Shown one piece after another: positions 39,023-44,018 of a DNA stretch of 64,000 bases (position 1 is its first letter; every line of letters begins with the position of its first letter). The notes beneath the pieces were generated by a model. It searched no databases. It saw nothing but the letters and a program-made list of their open reading frames with translations, and had not been told where the DNA came from. Origin of the DNA: an uncultured Christensenellaceae bacterium (GTDB taxonomy: Bacteria; Bacillota; Clostridia; Christensenellales; UMGS416); contig CALWDW010000008.1 of NCBI GenBank assembly GCA_944376795.1, positions 124,001-188,000 on the forward strand. The letters run 5' to 3'. Position numbers and translations under genes: made by a program.

Positions 39023-40684
39023 CTAGAGCCTGACAAGGAGCACGGCAATGCCTCCGGGAGGAACCGTGACCTGCCAGGTGTCCTCAGCGGGGTGGGCGAG
39101 ATCCTTCCCGCCCCAAAGGGGCTCCAAGGCCAACGGCCGCAGGGGATGCAGGCTGACCCGGGAAGCGCTTCCCGGCAGGGACCTATCCCCGTGATCCACC
39201 GAGCGCTCTATGCCCTCGTTGTGGAGTAAAGCCAACAGATAGCCGTCAGAAACCCGGTTCAGCATAGCCTCGATGCTTCCCTCGATCCGCAGGGGGAGCG
39301 CGGCCTCCAGAGTGCGCCGGATGGCGGGACCGAGCACGTCCCAGTCTTCGGTCAGCCGCAGTACCTGGCTGTAGCGCGCCAGTGCGCCGGAGGGAGCGTC
39401 CTCCCAGAGGATATCGAAAGCATCCGGATAGGGGCTGTTGGTCAGGGCATGCCCTTCGTTGCCGAGATGGGGCTGGGGATTGGCGAAGATCTGCCGCAGC
39501 GCTTTGCGCACCTTCTGGGCGTCGGACAGCGCGCCCTCCGTCAGGGCATACCCCATCAGATAGGAGGGAGCAGCATCTTCCCGGGCGAGGAAGGACAGAT
39601 CCAGGATGGGAAGGCTCCGCGGCAGCAGCAGGGCGATGGGGGTTACCAGATCTCCGGCCTCCGGATAGGCCCGGGCGAAGTCCAGGAATTCCTTCTTGAC
39701 CCGCCCATAGGACGACAGCGCGAAGTCGTGATGGTCCTGGAAGGTGTTGCACGTGCCGTGCTCATCACTGAGATAGGCCGCCCCGGCAAAGAGGCTGTGG
39801 AAGTAAATGCGCCGCTGCAGGGCCCGGGAGCTGCCGCCGTTTTCCCCGAGAATGGAGAAGGGCGTGGCCAAGGGTTCCCCGTCATCCTCGCCGGAGAGCC
39901 ATTCATTGTCCCCGCCGGTGTGGCAGCTGCAGCAACTGAAAGGGTTCCCTCCCCAGGGTTCGTAATAGGCCCCGAAATCTATGCCCCAAGCCCGGGCCAT
40001 TCCACGGTTCAGCGCGGTTTGGATCCGGGTGAAGGGGGTCTGGGCGCCGAGCTCGGGCATCAGGTGCCGCACGCCGGCCTCGGTCTCCAGCCGCGCTGCC
40101 TGGAAGCAGCTGTCTGCCGCCACGAGCCGGCCGCCGGTTTCCTCCATGCGCCGCTGCAAGAGCTTGCGGGAGGCCGCCAGGAAGGCGGGAATATCGGAGG
40201 GGAAGGGAATCTGGGAGAATTCCTTGGCGCTGCCGGCCTCCAGATAGATTACGCCGGGAAGCTGCGGGAAAGCAGCCTGCAGCCCTTCCACGATGGCGGA
40301 TTCGCTCCAGGGCGCCGGCGCAGAGAGGGCCTTTTCCAAGCGGAGCCAATCCTGACGGAGGTTAGAGCTCCACTCGTGGAGTTGGAAGCCTAGAAAGCGG
40401 GGTCCCAACCGCTCCTCTATGCGTCGCAGCAGGGACGCATCCCAGGGATACTGGTAATAGTAGGTGCCGCCCATGAGGCGGTCGATGTAGAACAGGGGCT
40501 TGTACGCCTCCAGCGCGGCGTCCAGCGGGCTGCCCGGCGCCGCCAGGGTATTGAAGGACCGCGGTGAACCGGGGACATGGGCGCCGCAGTGGGTGATTTT
40601 CAGTCCGCTGTCCGCGCCAAAGAGGCCGCTGCGGACCAGCGCCGGAAATGACTCCGGCAGGTATCCATGGATAAAGGTCAGCAT
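39023..40684 (-). CDS. Glycosidase-like protein of unknown family
   Basis: Protein of 553 residues without signal peptide. I recognise no named family. It has the look of a TIM-barrel glycosidase: aromatic and acidic clusters (FYIDRLMGG, QLHEWSSNL, DFGAYYEPWGGNPFS, GAAYLSDEHG) and a C-terminal beta-sandwich-like end (IEGSIEAMLNRVSDGYLLALLHNEG ... VPPGGIAVLLV is shared style with many glycoside hydrolases). Cys-Cys-Ser-Cys-His near residue 258 could bind metal. AGGGAGGATTTTTT precedes the ATG; it has its own promoter. It lies downstream of the Fur gene. Confidence 0.6.
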   Translation of the reverse strand: MLTFIHGYLPESFPALVRSGLFGADSGLKITHCGAHVPGSPRSFNTLAAPGSPLDAALEAYKPLFYIDRLMGGTYYYQYPWDASLLRRIEERLGPRFLGFQLHEWSSNLRQDWLRLEKALSAPAPWSESAIVEGLQAAFPQLPGVIYLEAGSAKEFSQIPFPSDIPAFLAASRKLLQRRMEETGGRLVAADSCFQAARLETEAGVRHLMPELGAQTPFTRIQTALNRGMARAWGIDFGAYYEPWGGNPFSCCSCHTGGDNEWLSGEDDGEPLATPFSILGENGGSSRALQRRIYFHSLFAGAAYLSDEHGTCNTFQDHHDFALSSYGRVKKEFLDFARAYPEAGDLVTPIALLLPRSLPILDLSFLAREDAAPSYLMGYALTEGALSDAQKVRKALRQIFANPQPHLGNEGHALTNSPYPDAFDILWEDAPSGALARYSQVLRLTEDWDVLGPAIRRTLEAALPLRIEGSIEAMLNRVSDGYLLALLHNEGIERSVDHGDRSLPGSASRVSLHPLRPLALEPLWGGKDLAHPAEDTWQVTVPPGGIAVLLVRL

Positions 40685-41370: not shown

Positions 41371-41943
41371 TTACAGGGCCTCCGAATCCCCGAAGAGGGC
41401 CGCCTCGATCTGCAGGCAGAAGGCGTGATACATGCGGATATGCTCCTCCTGCACGCGGTAGGTTTCGGTGCAGCCGGCCCGCAGGAGGATATCGCACAGA
41501 GAGGCCATGCGCCCGCCATTGGCGCCGGTCATTCCCAAGGTTTCCATGCCCAGCGCCCGGGCTACGGTCAAGGCGCGGCAGACGTTCTCAGCGTTGCCCG
41601 ACGTGGAGATACCCAGAAGCATATCGCCGGGCCGCCCATAGGCCAAGACCTGCTGGGCATAGCAGGACTGGCCGTCTATATCGTTGGTCACGGCGGCAAT
41701 GAGCGGTCCTTGACAGGTCAGGTCAAAGGCAGGCAGGCCCTGCTGGAGATGCGCGGCCCAGGCCAGGCCGATGCGCGCCAGCAAGGGGCCGGGCAGCGGG
41801 CGGCGGGACCGGAACCCTTTGGCCAGCTCGCCCACAATGTGGCCGCAGTCGGCTGCGCTGCCTCCGTTGCCGCAGAGGAGCAGCTTTCCGCCCCTGCGGA
41901 AGCAGGCAGTGATGACCTGTGCCGCTTGCTCAATGGAATGCAT
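41371..41943 (-). CDS. SIS-domain phosphosugar isomerase (GmhA-like)
   Basis: Protein of 190 residues with a single SIS domain: LLLCGNGGSAADCGHIVGEL (phosphosugar-binding G-N-G-G-S-A), then LLGISTSGNAENVCRAL. The pattern resembles sedoheptulose-7-phosphate isomerase GmhA and DiaA. AAGGAGGAAC stands before ATG 41943, inside the end of the ROK gene (14-base overlap), so the pair works together, probably an isomerase acting on the sugar phosphate made by the kinase; substrate unknown. Confidence 0.85.
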   Translation of the reverse strand: MHSIEQAAQVITACFRRGGKLLLCGNGGSAADCGHIVGELAKGFRSRRPLPGPLLARIGLAWAAHLQQGLPAFDLTCQGPLIAAVTNDIDGQSCYAQQVLAYGRPGDMLLGISTSGNAENVCRALTVARALGMETLGMTGANGGRMASLCDILLRAGCTETYRVQEEHIRMYHAFCLQIEAALFGDSEAL

Positions 41944-42850
41944 GGGGTTGTTCCTCCTTATATCCGTTCCACGCGACGGTGATGGCCGCCACGTCGCCGA
42001 TGCGGTCCCCCAATTGGGCAGGAAGCACCTGGCAGGCTGCAAAGGTGTAGGGAAGCGCCTCCTGCCGGGCTACCGCCAGCGCCGTATCCGCAAACCATCG
42101 GGTGGCGCGGGCGTAAATGCTGCCCAGGATGATGCGCTGGGGATTCAGAAGATCCATCAGCAGGGCCAGACCGCGTCCCAGGATCTCCGCGCTTTCCCGG
42201 AGTACAATTTGCGCGCCGGGGTCGCCCGCATCCGCGCGTGAAACCAGTTCCTTGGCCGACAGGGCCTGCCCAAGCCGCAGCTTGGCCAGGTTTTGCAGGC
42301 CGCCGCCCGAGCAGAAGCCTTCCCAGGATCCCTCTTTCCCGTAGCCCACAGGCCCGCGCGGCGCCATCCGGATGTGTCCCAATTCCCCTGCCATACCGCA
42401 GGCGCCGCGGTATAGGGAACCCTGGAGGATGAGGCCCGCGCCCAGTCCGGTTCCGAAGGTCAGAAAAATCATGGTTTCCGCGCCGCGTCCCGCCCCGTAA
42501 CGCCACTCCGCCAGCGCGCAGGCATCGGCGTCGTTCTGCAGATAGGCGGGACAGCCGATCCGATCCCGCAGGTAGGCGGTGACGGGGACGTCCACCCAGC
42601 CGGGCAGATTGGGCGGGGAGAGGATGGTTCCCTGCTGGGCGTCCAGGGGGCCGCCGCAGCTGACTCCCACCGCCAGCGGATAGGCGTAGACAGGGGGAAC
42701 GGCATGGCAGAGCGTATGGAGCAGTGTCTGCCAGTGGGGACAGCGGGCGGTGGCGATTTCCTGGCGGAAGAGGATTTCTCCCGCTTTGCTGCCTACGCAC
42801 AGGGCCGACTTGGTGCCGCCGATATCCAGACCCCAAACATAGCGGGTCAT
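41930..42850 (-). CDS. ROK-family sugar kinase
   Basis: Protein of 306 residues: phosphate-1 loop GLDIGGTKSALCV, sugar-binding QNDADACALAEWRYG (catalytic Asp), phosphate-2 FLTFGTGLGAGLI and the ROK segment GELGHIRMAP. The usual CxCGxxGCxE zinc motif is degenerate here (GYGKEGSWEGFCSGGG), with only one Cys. GGGAGG precedes ATG 42850, which overlaps the stop of a 25-codon upstream ORF. It lacks a helix-turn-helix, so it is a kinase rather than a repressor. Substrate unknown (glucose or an amino sugar are typical). Confidence 0.88.
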   Translation of the reverse strand: MTRYVWGLDIGGTKSALCVGSKAGEILFRQEIATARCPHWQTLLHTLCHAVPPVYAYPLAVGVSCGGPLDAQQGTILSPPNLPGWVDVPVTAYLRDRIGCPAYLQNDADACALAEWRYGAGRGAETMIFLTFGTGLGAGLILQGSLYRGACGMAGELGHIRMAPRGPVGYGKEGSWEGFCSGGGLQNLAKLRLGQALSAKELVSRADAGDPGAQIVLRESAEILGRGLALLMDLLNPQRIILGSIYARATRWFADTALAVARQEALPYTFAACQVLPAQLGDRIGDVAAITVAWNGYKEEQPHAFH

Positions 42851-42924
42851 GGGCGGGCCTCCCGGGGCAGATAACCGAAGGAAGCCTCCGGAACCGCATG
42901 GGAAACGGAAAACATTCTATGCAT
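42847..42924 (-). CDS. 25-residue upstream ORF coupled to the ROK kinase
   Basis: AGGAGG stands 8 bases before ATG 42924 and opens MHRMFSVSHAVPEASFGYLP plus five residues (REARP), whose TGA overlaps the ATG of the kinase (ATGA). An ATG five bases earlier, in another frame, is only 3 bases from the site and too close. The spacing, the strong site and the stop-start overlap point to real translation, either a leader peptide or a small subunit; no family is recognised. Confidence 0.5.
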   Translation of the reverse strand: MHRMFSVSHAVPEASFGYLPREARP

Positions 42925-42947
42925 GGCATTTTCCTCCTACGCCTTGC

Positions 42948-42976
42948 AGTATATACGCTGGGCTTCTGGGTTTCCA
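42948..42976 (-). promoter_or_regulatory. Promoter of the ROK/SIS unit
   Basis: Minus strand TGGAAA (42976-42971), 17 bases, TATACT (42953-42948), about 24 bases before the upstream ORF. Confidence 0.6.
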
Positions 42977-42996
42977 CGCAAAAACTATGGTGTTTA

Positions 42997-43024
42997 TTGC
43001 AATTTTTACGATGCATGGTACAAT
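42997..43024 (+). promoter_or_regulatory. Promoter of the AraC-family gene
   Basis: TTGCAA (42997-43002), 16 bases, TACAAT (43019-43024) with TGG just before; divergent from the kinase promoter 20 bases away. Confidence 0.7.
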
Positions 43025-43045
43025 ACCTCCCAAGGAGGAACCGCC

Positions 43046-43888
43046 ATGACCGCCACCGCTGCCTGCATTACCCTGCATCACCCGCTGAACCAGGAATCCG
43101 TTGCCTGCTGCCAGCTGCTGCTGCAGCGCTGTCTCATCCGGGACGACGTGCCCCTGCATTGGCACACCTACTACGAACTGGAGCTGGTGCTGGACGGTGC
43201 GGGAGTGCAGTGGATCAACGGCCGCCAGCTGCCGCTGGGCGCCGGCAGTCTCTACCTGATGACGCCCGAAGGCCTGCATCGGCTGCAGGCTCGGCAGCCC
43301 ATGGATATCCTCAGCCTGAAGCTTCCCGCCAGCGGCCTGCCCTCTTATCTGCAGGGGATGCTGGGGCAGTACAGCCAGCCGGCCTTCTGCCAGCTGGAGT
43401 CTCCGGCCTGGGAGGAGTGCCGGAGCGATTTCATGCGCATCTATCGGGAAATGCAGCAGCCTGGTTTGGACGGGGATGCCTGTATCTATAGCCTGGCGGC
43501 GCTGCTGCTCTGCGCCCTGCGGCGCCGGGATGCGCTGCATACCACCGCCCCCGTTCCCGACCACGCGCTGATGCGGATGCAGACGGTGATGGAATACATC
43601 CAGGCGCATTTCCGGGAGCCGCTGACCTTAGCGGATACGGCGCGGAGCGTGGGACTGACGCCGAACTACCTCAGCGCGCGTTTTACCCAGGTAATTGGCT
43701 GCGGCTTTTCGGCCTATGTGGCCGGGCTGCGGGTGGAGTATGCGCGCCAGCTGCTGGCCCAAGGGAATGTGAGCGTGACCGAAGCGGCCTTTGAAAGCGG
43801 GTTTGGAAGCCTTTCCCATTTTCTGCGAACCTTTAAGCGGCTCTGCGGCGTATCGCCGGGCGCCTACCGTCGAGGAACCCTTTTCTGA
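43046..43888 (+). CDS. AraC-family transcriptional regulator
   Basis: Protein of 280 residues: N-terminal cupin-type sensor (LHWHTYYELELVLDG, about residues 35-90) and two C-terminal helix-turn-helix motifs (LTLADTARSVGLTPNYLSARF and VSVTEAAFESGFGSLSHFLRTF) ending in the family signature FKRLCGVSPGAYR. AAGGAGGAAC precedes ATG 43046. It faces the ROK/SIS unit across a shared promoter region and most likely controls it in response to a sugar; this is inference. Confidence 0.92.
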   Translation: MTATAACITLHHPLNQESVACCQLLLQRCLIRDDVPLHWHTYYELELVLDGAGVQWINGRQLPLGAGSLYLMTPEGLHRLQARQPMDILSLKLPASGLPSYLQGMLGQYSQPAFCQLESPAWEECRSDFMRIYREMQQPGLDGDACIYSLAALLLCALRRRDALHTTAPVPDHALMRMQTVMEYIQAHFREPLTLADTARSVGLTPNYLSARFTQVIGCGFSAYVAGLRVEYARQLLAQGNVSVTEAAFESGFGSLSHFLRTFKRLCGVSPGAYRRGTLF

Positions 43889-43969: not shown

Positions 43970-44018
43970 AGTAGCCGCGGCAGGACATCCATGGTCCTGC
44001 CGCGGCTACTGTTTTTTT
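43970..44018 (+). terminator. Terminator between AraC and the phosphatase gene
   Basis: A 16-bp perfect stem (43970-43985 with 43995-44010), followed by G and seven T. The reverse strand carries CTTT, so it may also serve the convergent gene. Confidence 0.93.

Follow-up and report, generated by a model that had tools for sequence, protein, structure and literature searches.

Organisation of the ROK-SIS locus

The window, that is the whole stretch of 64,000 nucleotides analysed here from an uncultured Christensenellaceae bacterium, carries on the minus strand a gene for a ROK-family sugar kinase followed by one for a SIS-domain protein and, divergently oriented, the gene of an AraC-family regulator. 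The features of this region, in window coordinates, are the following:

41371–41943, minus strand: SIS-domain protein, GmhA-like (under NCBIfam cut-offs), 190 aa; Pfam SIS_2, 2.5e-20
41930–42850, minus strand: ROK-family sugar kinase, 306 aa; Pfam ROK, 8.4e-54
42847–42924, minus strand: 25-codon upstream ORF (uORF), MHRMFSVSHAVPEASFGYLPREARP; assessed by ORF list, codon score and shuffles
42857–42906, minus strand: predicted hairpin closing SD2, obtained by folding; GUUUCCC (42906–42900) with GGGAGGC (42863–42857)
42858–42863, minus strand: GGGAGG, the ribosome site belonging to the kinase (SD2), seen in the sequence within the last uORF codons
42933–42938, minus strand: AGGAGG, the uORF ribosome site (SD1), seen in the sequence with a spacer of 8 nt to the uORF ATG
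42948–42976, minus strand: promoter-like site TGGAAA-17-TATACT from a consensus scan; its match at 9 of 12 positions is no proof of function
43046–43888, plus strand: divergent AraC-family regulator, 280 aa; Pfam HTH_18, HTH_AraC and AraC_binding

The kinase scored 183.5 bits against the ROK profile, above the curated cut-off of 22.9, and its ATG at 42850 is backed by the N-termini of its relatives (MENNYVWGLDIGGTK in locus L033 and MTTSNIIWGLDIGGTK in locus L034). An N-terminal extension was discarded, as there is no in-frame start 5' of 42850 before a stop and the relatives begin at about the same place. The divergent AraC gene, which the sequence-only reading had placed here, was confirmed by the HTH_18 and AraC_binding domains and by a start at 43046 behind AAGGAGG, preferred to a longer start at 42923 that has no visible SD; a search of the 395 further genomes in our order sample gave no relative of this regulator at E ≤ 1e-30. 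The start regions of kinase and regulator, on opposite strands (42845–42867 and 43029–43051), are 74% complementary over 23 nt, a likeness that probably reflects two similar ribosome sites and the ATGACC starts. A direct repeat, ATGCATGG, was also observed in the divergent promoter region at 42919–42926 and 43011–43018, 92 nt apart, and its copies could be half-sites of the regulator, or chance. On the other side of the ROK-SIS pair, 3' of it and beyond a Fur/PerR-type regulator, lies the gene of a 553-aa protein (39023–40684, minus strand), for which neither Pfam nor NCBIfam gave a match at E ≤ 0.001.

Read on the minus strand from about 42945, the leader runs AAGGCGTAGGAGGAAAATGCC-ATG, with the ATG at 42924, followed by 24 codons and TGA. 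The 20 nt 5' of the uORF start are predicted to form with the anti-SD a duplex of −10.2 kcal/mol. At 42850–42847 the sequence is ATGA, in which the uORF TGA (42849–42847) and the kinase ATG (42850–42848) share bases. Thus, the AGGAGG with its 25-residue ORF and the overlap of its stop with the kinase start, both reported in the sequence-only reading, were found again in the sequence and, for the ORF, in the ORF list, and that observation was mostly right. A second ATG, 3 nt past AGGAGG, opens a 352-aa frame overlapping the kinase and was set aside, the spacing being too short. As the promoter-like site ends at 42948, transcription would start only a few bases 5' of AGGAGG, at about 42941–42945, and the uORF would be the first cistron of the transcript.

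The kinase has a ribosome site of its own

It had been presumed that the kinase lacks a ribosome site of its own, and this did not hold: GGGAGG ends 7 nt 5' of the kinase ATG, and the 20 nt 5' of the kinase start are predicted to pair with the anti-SD at −10.3 kcal/mol, equal to SD1. The related statement that AGGAGG is the only strong site before the ROK-SIS pair is correct 5' of the kinase for the literal hexamer, but not for pairing strength, and it also fails for the SIS gene, which carries UAAGGAGG 9 nt ahead of its ATG. For a ribosome site, therefore, the kinase need not rely on the uORF. Judged by its sequence and position, the embedded GGGAGG is the "SD2" of a two-cistron layout.

Predicted folding of the leader

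In the predicted transcript SD2 is closed, with a mean unpaired value of about 0.005–0.006; its partner is GUUUCCC in the uORF or, in a shorter fold, GGCUUCCU. To place these values, we used a sample of the same genome, 2.68 Mb in size, made of the window and 20 further stretches and adding up to 449,783 bases, in which genes and operon-first genes were called by a crude codon-score method; this method also underlies the codon score and the uORF frequencies given below. In this sample, 8 of 309 SD-bearing starts, SD2 counted in, were as closed as SD2. The SD of the gene for the 553-aa protein was likewise predicted to be fully paired. In sets of 1000 each, a closure of 0.02 or less was reached by 82 dinucleotide shuffles, 69 codon permutations and 61 random segments of the window, and the leader was not more stable than shuffles (z 0.25 and z −0.12). 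SD2 deprived of its 5' partner was still mostly paired elsewhere (0.05–0.33 unpaired, with one position at 0.99). With the fold extended 60 or 100 nt into the kinase, SD1 was unpaired at about 0.6–0.8 at most positions and the uORF AUG was mostly paired (0.01–0.22 unpaired); with 30 nt of the kinase, SD1 was half paired. Considering the rearrangements, the stability, the removal of the partner and the paired uORF AUG, the predicted closure of SD2 by structure is no more than suggestive of a selected feature.

Searches for attenuators, riboswitches and CsrA

The sequence-only reading had proposed a leader peptide or a translational coupler. For a leader peptide in the sense of attenuation the result was negative: the leader contains no terminator-like site, the sole one between 41000 and 44100 being at 43970–44010 on the opposite strand; the uORF has no run of one amino acid and no repeated sensor codons; and Rfam gave no matches up to E = 1 within 41900–43200. 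An attenuator or a riboswitch was rejected on the absence of a terminator-like leader site and of an Rfam match. Since no CsrA gene was found in the genome of the window (0 of 1 genome, 95% complete), control by CsrA is unlikely and was rejected as well. The anatomy supports the coupler part of the proposal, with SD1, a short cistron, an embedded SD2, the ATGA overlap, a predicted pairing of SD2 and a promoter-like site all in place.

Chance expectation and frequency in the genome

The 195-nt leader was shuffled 20,000 times with conservation of dinucleotides. An AGGAGG-ATG frame of 15 or more codons with exactly the 4-nt overlap on the kinase start was obtained in 7 shuffles, and an AGGAGG-ATG of whatever length in 50; a looser SD-uORF (one of four 5-nt SD cores, ATG, GTG or TTG as start, at least 10 codons, end at −10 to +30) was obtained in 324. 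The arrangement is real and non-random, and the shuffle figure overstates its significance, because a single leader was chosen for this very feature and tested after the fact.

The codon score of the uORF was 0.189 bits per codon, compared with 0.216 (sd 0.22) for stretches of real genes and −0.157 (sd 0.35) for wrong-frame stretches, 21% of which match or exceed the value of the uORF; in the training of the score, the kinase itself was left out and two spurious ORFs from its region were used in its place. The codon usage of the uORF thus appears coding-like, and is not decisive.

Of the 263 operon-first genes in the genome sample, 2 have an AGGAGG-ATG uORF that reaches 4 nt into the gene and overlaps no other called gene, namely the uORF of the window and one at a doubtful GTG-started call in stretch L124. 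With the conditions relaxed to any 5-nt SD core, any start codon, 8–70 codons and an end at −10 to +30, some uORF was seen for 11 of 263, several of them overlapping other genes. Such a uORF is not habitual for this genome. The ORF in L124 (3703–3876, minus strand) has 57 codons and an AGGAGG, and overlaps the called gene by 4 nt; it may be another coupler, a small gene or an artefact of gene calling.

Comparison with related kinase loci

Homologous kinases were collected by tblastn at 150 bits or more, giving 97 loci in which the window is counted once, its copy L001 and lower scorers having been dropped; one of the searches behind the set contributed its best 80 of 102, and some loci look like the same genome taken from two collections (e.g., L008 and L073, with identical gene ends). 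Kinase starts were picked by rule, and upstream genes were defined mechanically as ORFs of at least 100 codons. In 23 of the 97 loci the kinase start overlaps the stop of such an ORF by 4 or 1 nt, and in 48 it lies within −15 to +30 of the end of one. Stop-start closeness being common in this kinase family, what sets the window apart is the 25-codon cistron in that slot.

The nearest kinases (L033, L034, L004 and L005) are 59–62% identical to that of the window. In L033 and L034 the gene order is the end of a GH38-like gene, a GH2 glycosidase, ROK and SIS (the GH2 label comes from Pfam, the GH38 and SIS labels from reading the sequences by eye), which suggests that the ROK-SIS operon of these loci serves the use of mannosides or similar glycans. 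The kinase SD (CCGGGAGG) lies there within the last GH2 codons, and the stop-start overlap with GH2 is ATGA in L034, as in the window, and 11 nt in L033.

The uORF of the window was found in no relative among the 97 kinase loci and the 395 further genomes in the order sample, none of them of the same genus, and there is therefore no evidence of selection on it. The order sample consisted of 396 genomes drawn evenly from a larger order, with that of the window included, and the family comparison set of 8 genomes, again with that of the window. In the 395 genomes the uORF peptide gave three weak matches (E 0.026–0.068, two of them inside frames of more than 450 aa) and the leader DNA gave 12 matches of 19–36 nt; all were taken as chance. 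We also considered the 35 other kinase loci in which no ORF of 100 codons or more ends at −60 to +40, 5 of which have less than 500 nt upstream. An ATG-started, SD-bearing uORF of 8–60 codons ending at −15 to +30 occurs in none of the 35; TTG frames were seen in six, with 9 codons and use of the kinase's own SD in five of them and with 14 codons in the sixth.

Loss of the ORF in relatives whose kinase keeps its own site had been named as the observation that would speak against a functional uORF. This is seen by half: the uORF is in no relative, and 56 of the 97 kinases, the window counted in, carry their own SD core. Coupling is not refuted by this, because the nearest relatives are so distant and because in L033 and L034 the glycosidase fills the place of the uORF.

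Interpretation of the uORF

The reading that we favour, with a confidence somewhat above even, is that the 25-codon ORF is a natural translational coupler cistron. From the anatomy and its rarity in shuffles, taken together with a predicted promoter and a predicted hairpin, we infer translation, coupling and a benefit. RNA polymerase would start a few bases 5' of AGGAGG; ribosomes would load on this site and read the 25 codons, and in doing so would unfold the hairpin that hides the GGGAGG of the kinase. On reaching the TGA that overlaps the kinase ATG they would stop, and either the same ribosome would restart at the ATG or another would bind the GGGAGG, by then accessible. The peptide as such is probably without function. 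The reading agrees with the frequent start of kinases of this family on the stop of an upstream ORF and with the precedents described below. Against it stands the good SD of the kinase, with which the uORF might be dispensable.

If so, the kinase would simply start from its own GGGAGG, and the AGGAGG with its 25 codons would be incidental, neutral or weakly translated, which we consider rather unlikely. Several observations agree with it: the kinase SD matches that of the uORF in predicted strength, the uORF has no counterpart in the relatives found, 6–8% of the rearrangements reach the predicted closure of SD2, the uORF AUG is itself predicted to be mostly paired, and a fifth of wrong-frame stretches (21%, as above) score as well. 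It is opposed by the finding of the combined features in just 7 of the 20,000 leader shuffles, by the position of the uORF as the first on the predicted transcript and by SD1 being more open than SD2 in the fold. The uORF might instead be a relic, i.e., the tail end of a gene that once lay upstream, for instance a GH2, of which the rest was deleted while a new start and a promoter were gained. The order GH2-ROK-SIS in L033 and L034, with the kinase SD within the GH2 end and the ATGA overlap in L034, would fit this origin, as would the fact that the best GH2 match in this genome (95% complete) is just 31% identical. The alignments, however, give it no support: over the 40 nt 5' of the kinase, 41 of 72 control GGGAGG-ATG sites score as high against L034 as the window does and 29 of 72 against L033, at 24, 30, 60 and 80 nt the controls scoring as high are 14 to 46 of 72, and GH2 proteins compared with the leader by tblastn gave no match up to E = 10. 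The match CTGCC(CC)GGGAGG to L034, suggestive by eye, was for this reason rejected as a trace of GH2. A relic could be unrecognisable at such divergence; overall we regard this origin as quite improbable.

Very improbable, in our opinion, is a regulatory leader peptide that senses an amino acid, an antibiotic or its own nascent chain by ribosome stalling. The leader allows alternative pairings and contains a short ORF, which is compatible with such a peptide, and the uORF ends in Arg-Pro-stop; proline before a stop slows termination. Against it are the leader, without terminator-like site, sensor codon repeats or Rfam family, the lack of a CsrA gene in the genome searched and the lack of a convincing peptide relative in the order sample. 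A further possibility concerns the origin of the coupler and seems to us unlikely: the uORF would serve as a minimal stand-in after the loss of an upstream gene, a 25-codon cistron kept or rebuilt to maintain the ribosome feed after the ROK-SIS pair had come directly behind its own promoter, in a kinase family often fed by the ribosomes of the preceding gene.

Comparison with known systems

The proposed coupler cistron has the parts of the bicistronic design (BCD), for which PMC5995908 cites Mutalik 2013. The family itself offers a first comparison: ROK kinases of the relatives stand behind SIS or glycosidase genes, overlapping the preceding stop in the 23 loci mentioned and having their SD in the end of the preceding gene in L033 and L034, whereas their upstream cistron has at least 100 codons and that of the window 25, straight behind a promoter-like site. 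The synthetic design, as outlined in PMC5995908, consists of SD1, a short first cistron, SD2 at its 3' end and a close stop and start; compared with that outline, it is engineered with a first cistron of fewer than 20 residues, while the layout of the window is natural, with 25 codons and ATGA, the parts being otherwise alike.

A close natural parallel is ORF27-iraD of E. coli, for which PMC5574718 describes a 27-codon uORF whose stop overlaps the iraD start and an iraD SD held in RNA structure. According to the same account, translation of ORF27 would open the structure closing the SD, coupling of iraD was shown by experiment, and CsrA represses via this coupling. On that description, both systems have a short uORF with its own SD and a stop-start overlap, and the structured main SD of iraD would have its counterpart in the predicted closure of SD2; iraD, however, is an anti-adapter with a CsrA route, and the window has a sugar kinase, in a genome where a CsrA route like that of iraD is improbable since no CsrA gene was found. 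For ppe2 of M. tuberculosis, PMC11260477 describes uORF translation as essential for the downstream gene, primarily through termination-reinitiation; the uORF of that account accompanies a B12 riboswitch, unlike the leader of the window, which has no Rfam match. As stated in the review PMC12548453, −4 and −1 nt are the commonest spacings of adjacent genes, the unfolding and scanning models are not mutually exclusive, and some short ORFs only deliver ribosomes. No paper on a uORF of a ROK kinase was found in the open-access literature searched.

The uORF of the window is probably a new instance of a layout known from other bacteria, and the coupler is no new class of mechanism. If the stand-in origin were true, it would be the natural counterpart of the engineered bicistronic design, born of operon decay. 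If the coupler works as proposed, it would add another natural short ORF that serves only to supply the following gene with ribosomes, here in the sugar-kinase operon of a genome that its nearest named relatives mark as probably clostridial, and, if this is true, gene finders that skip very short ORFs would miss the first cistron of such operons.
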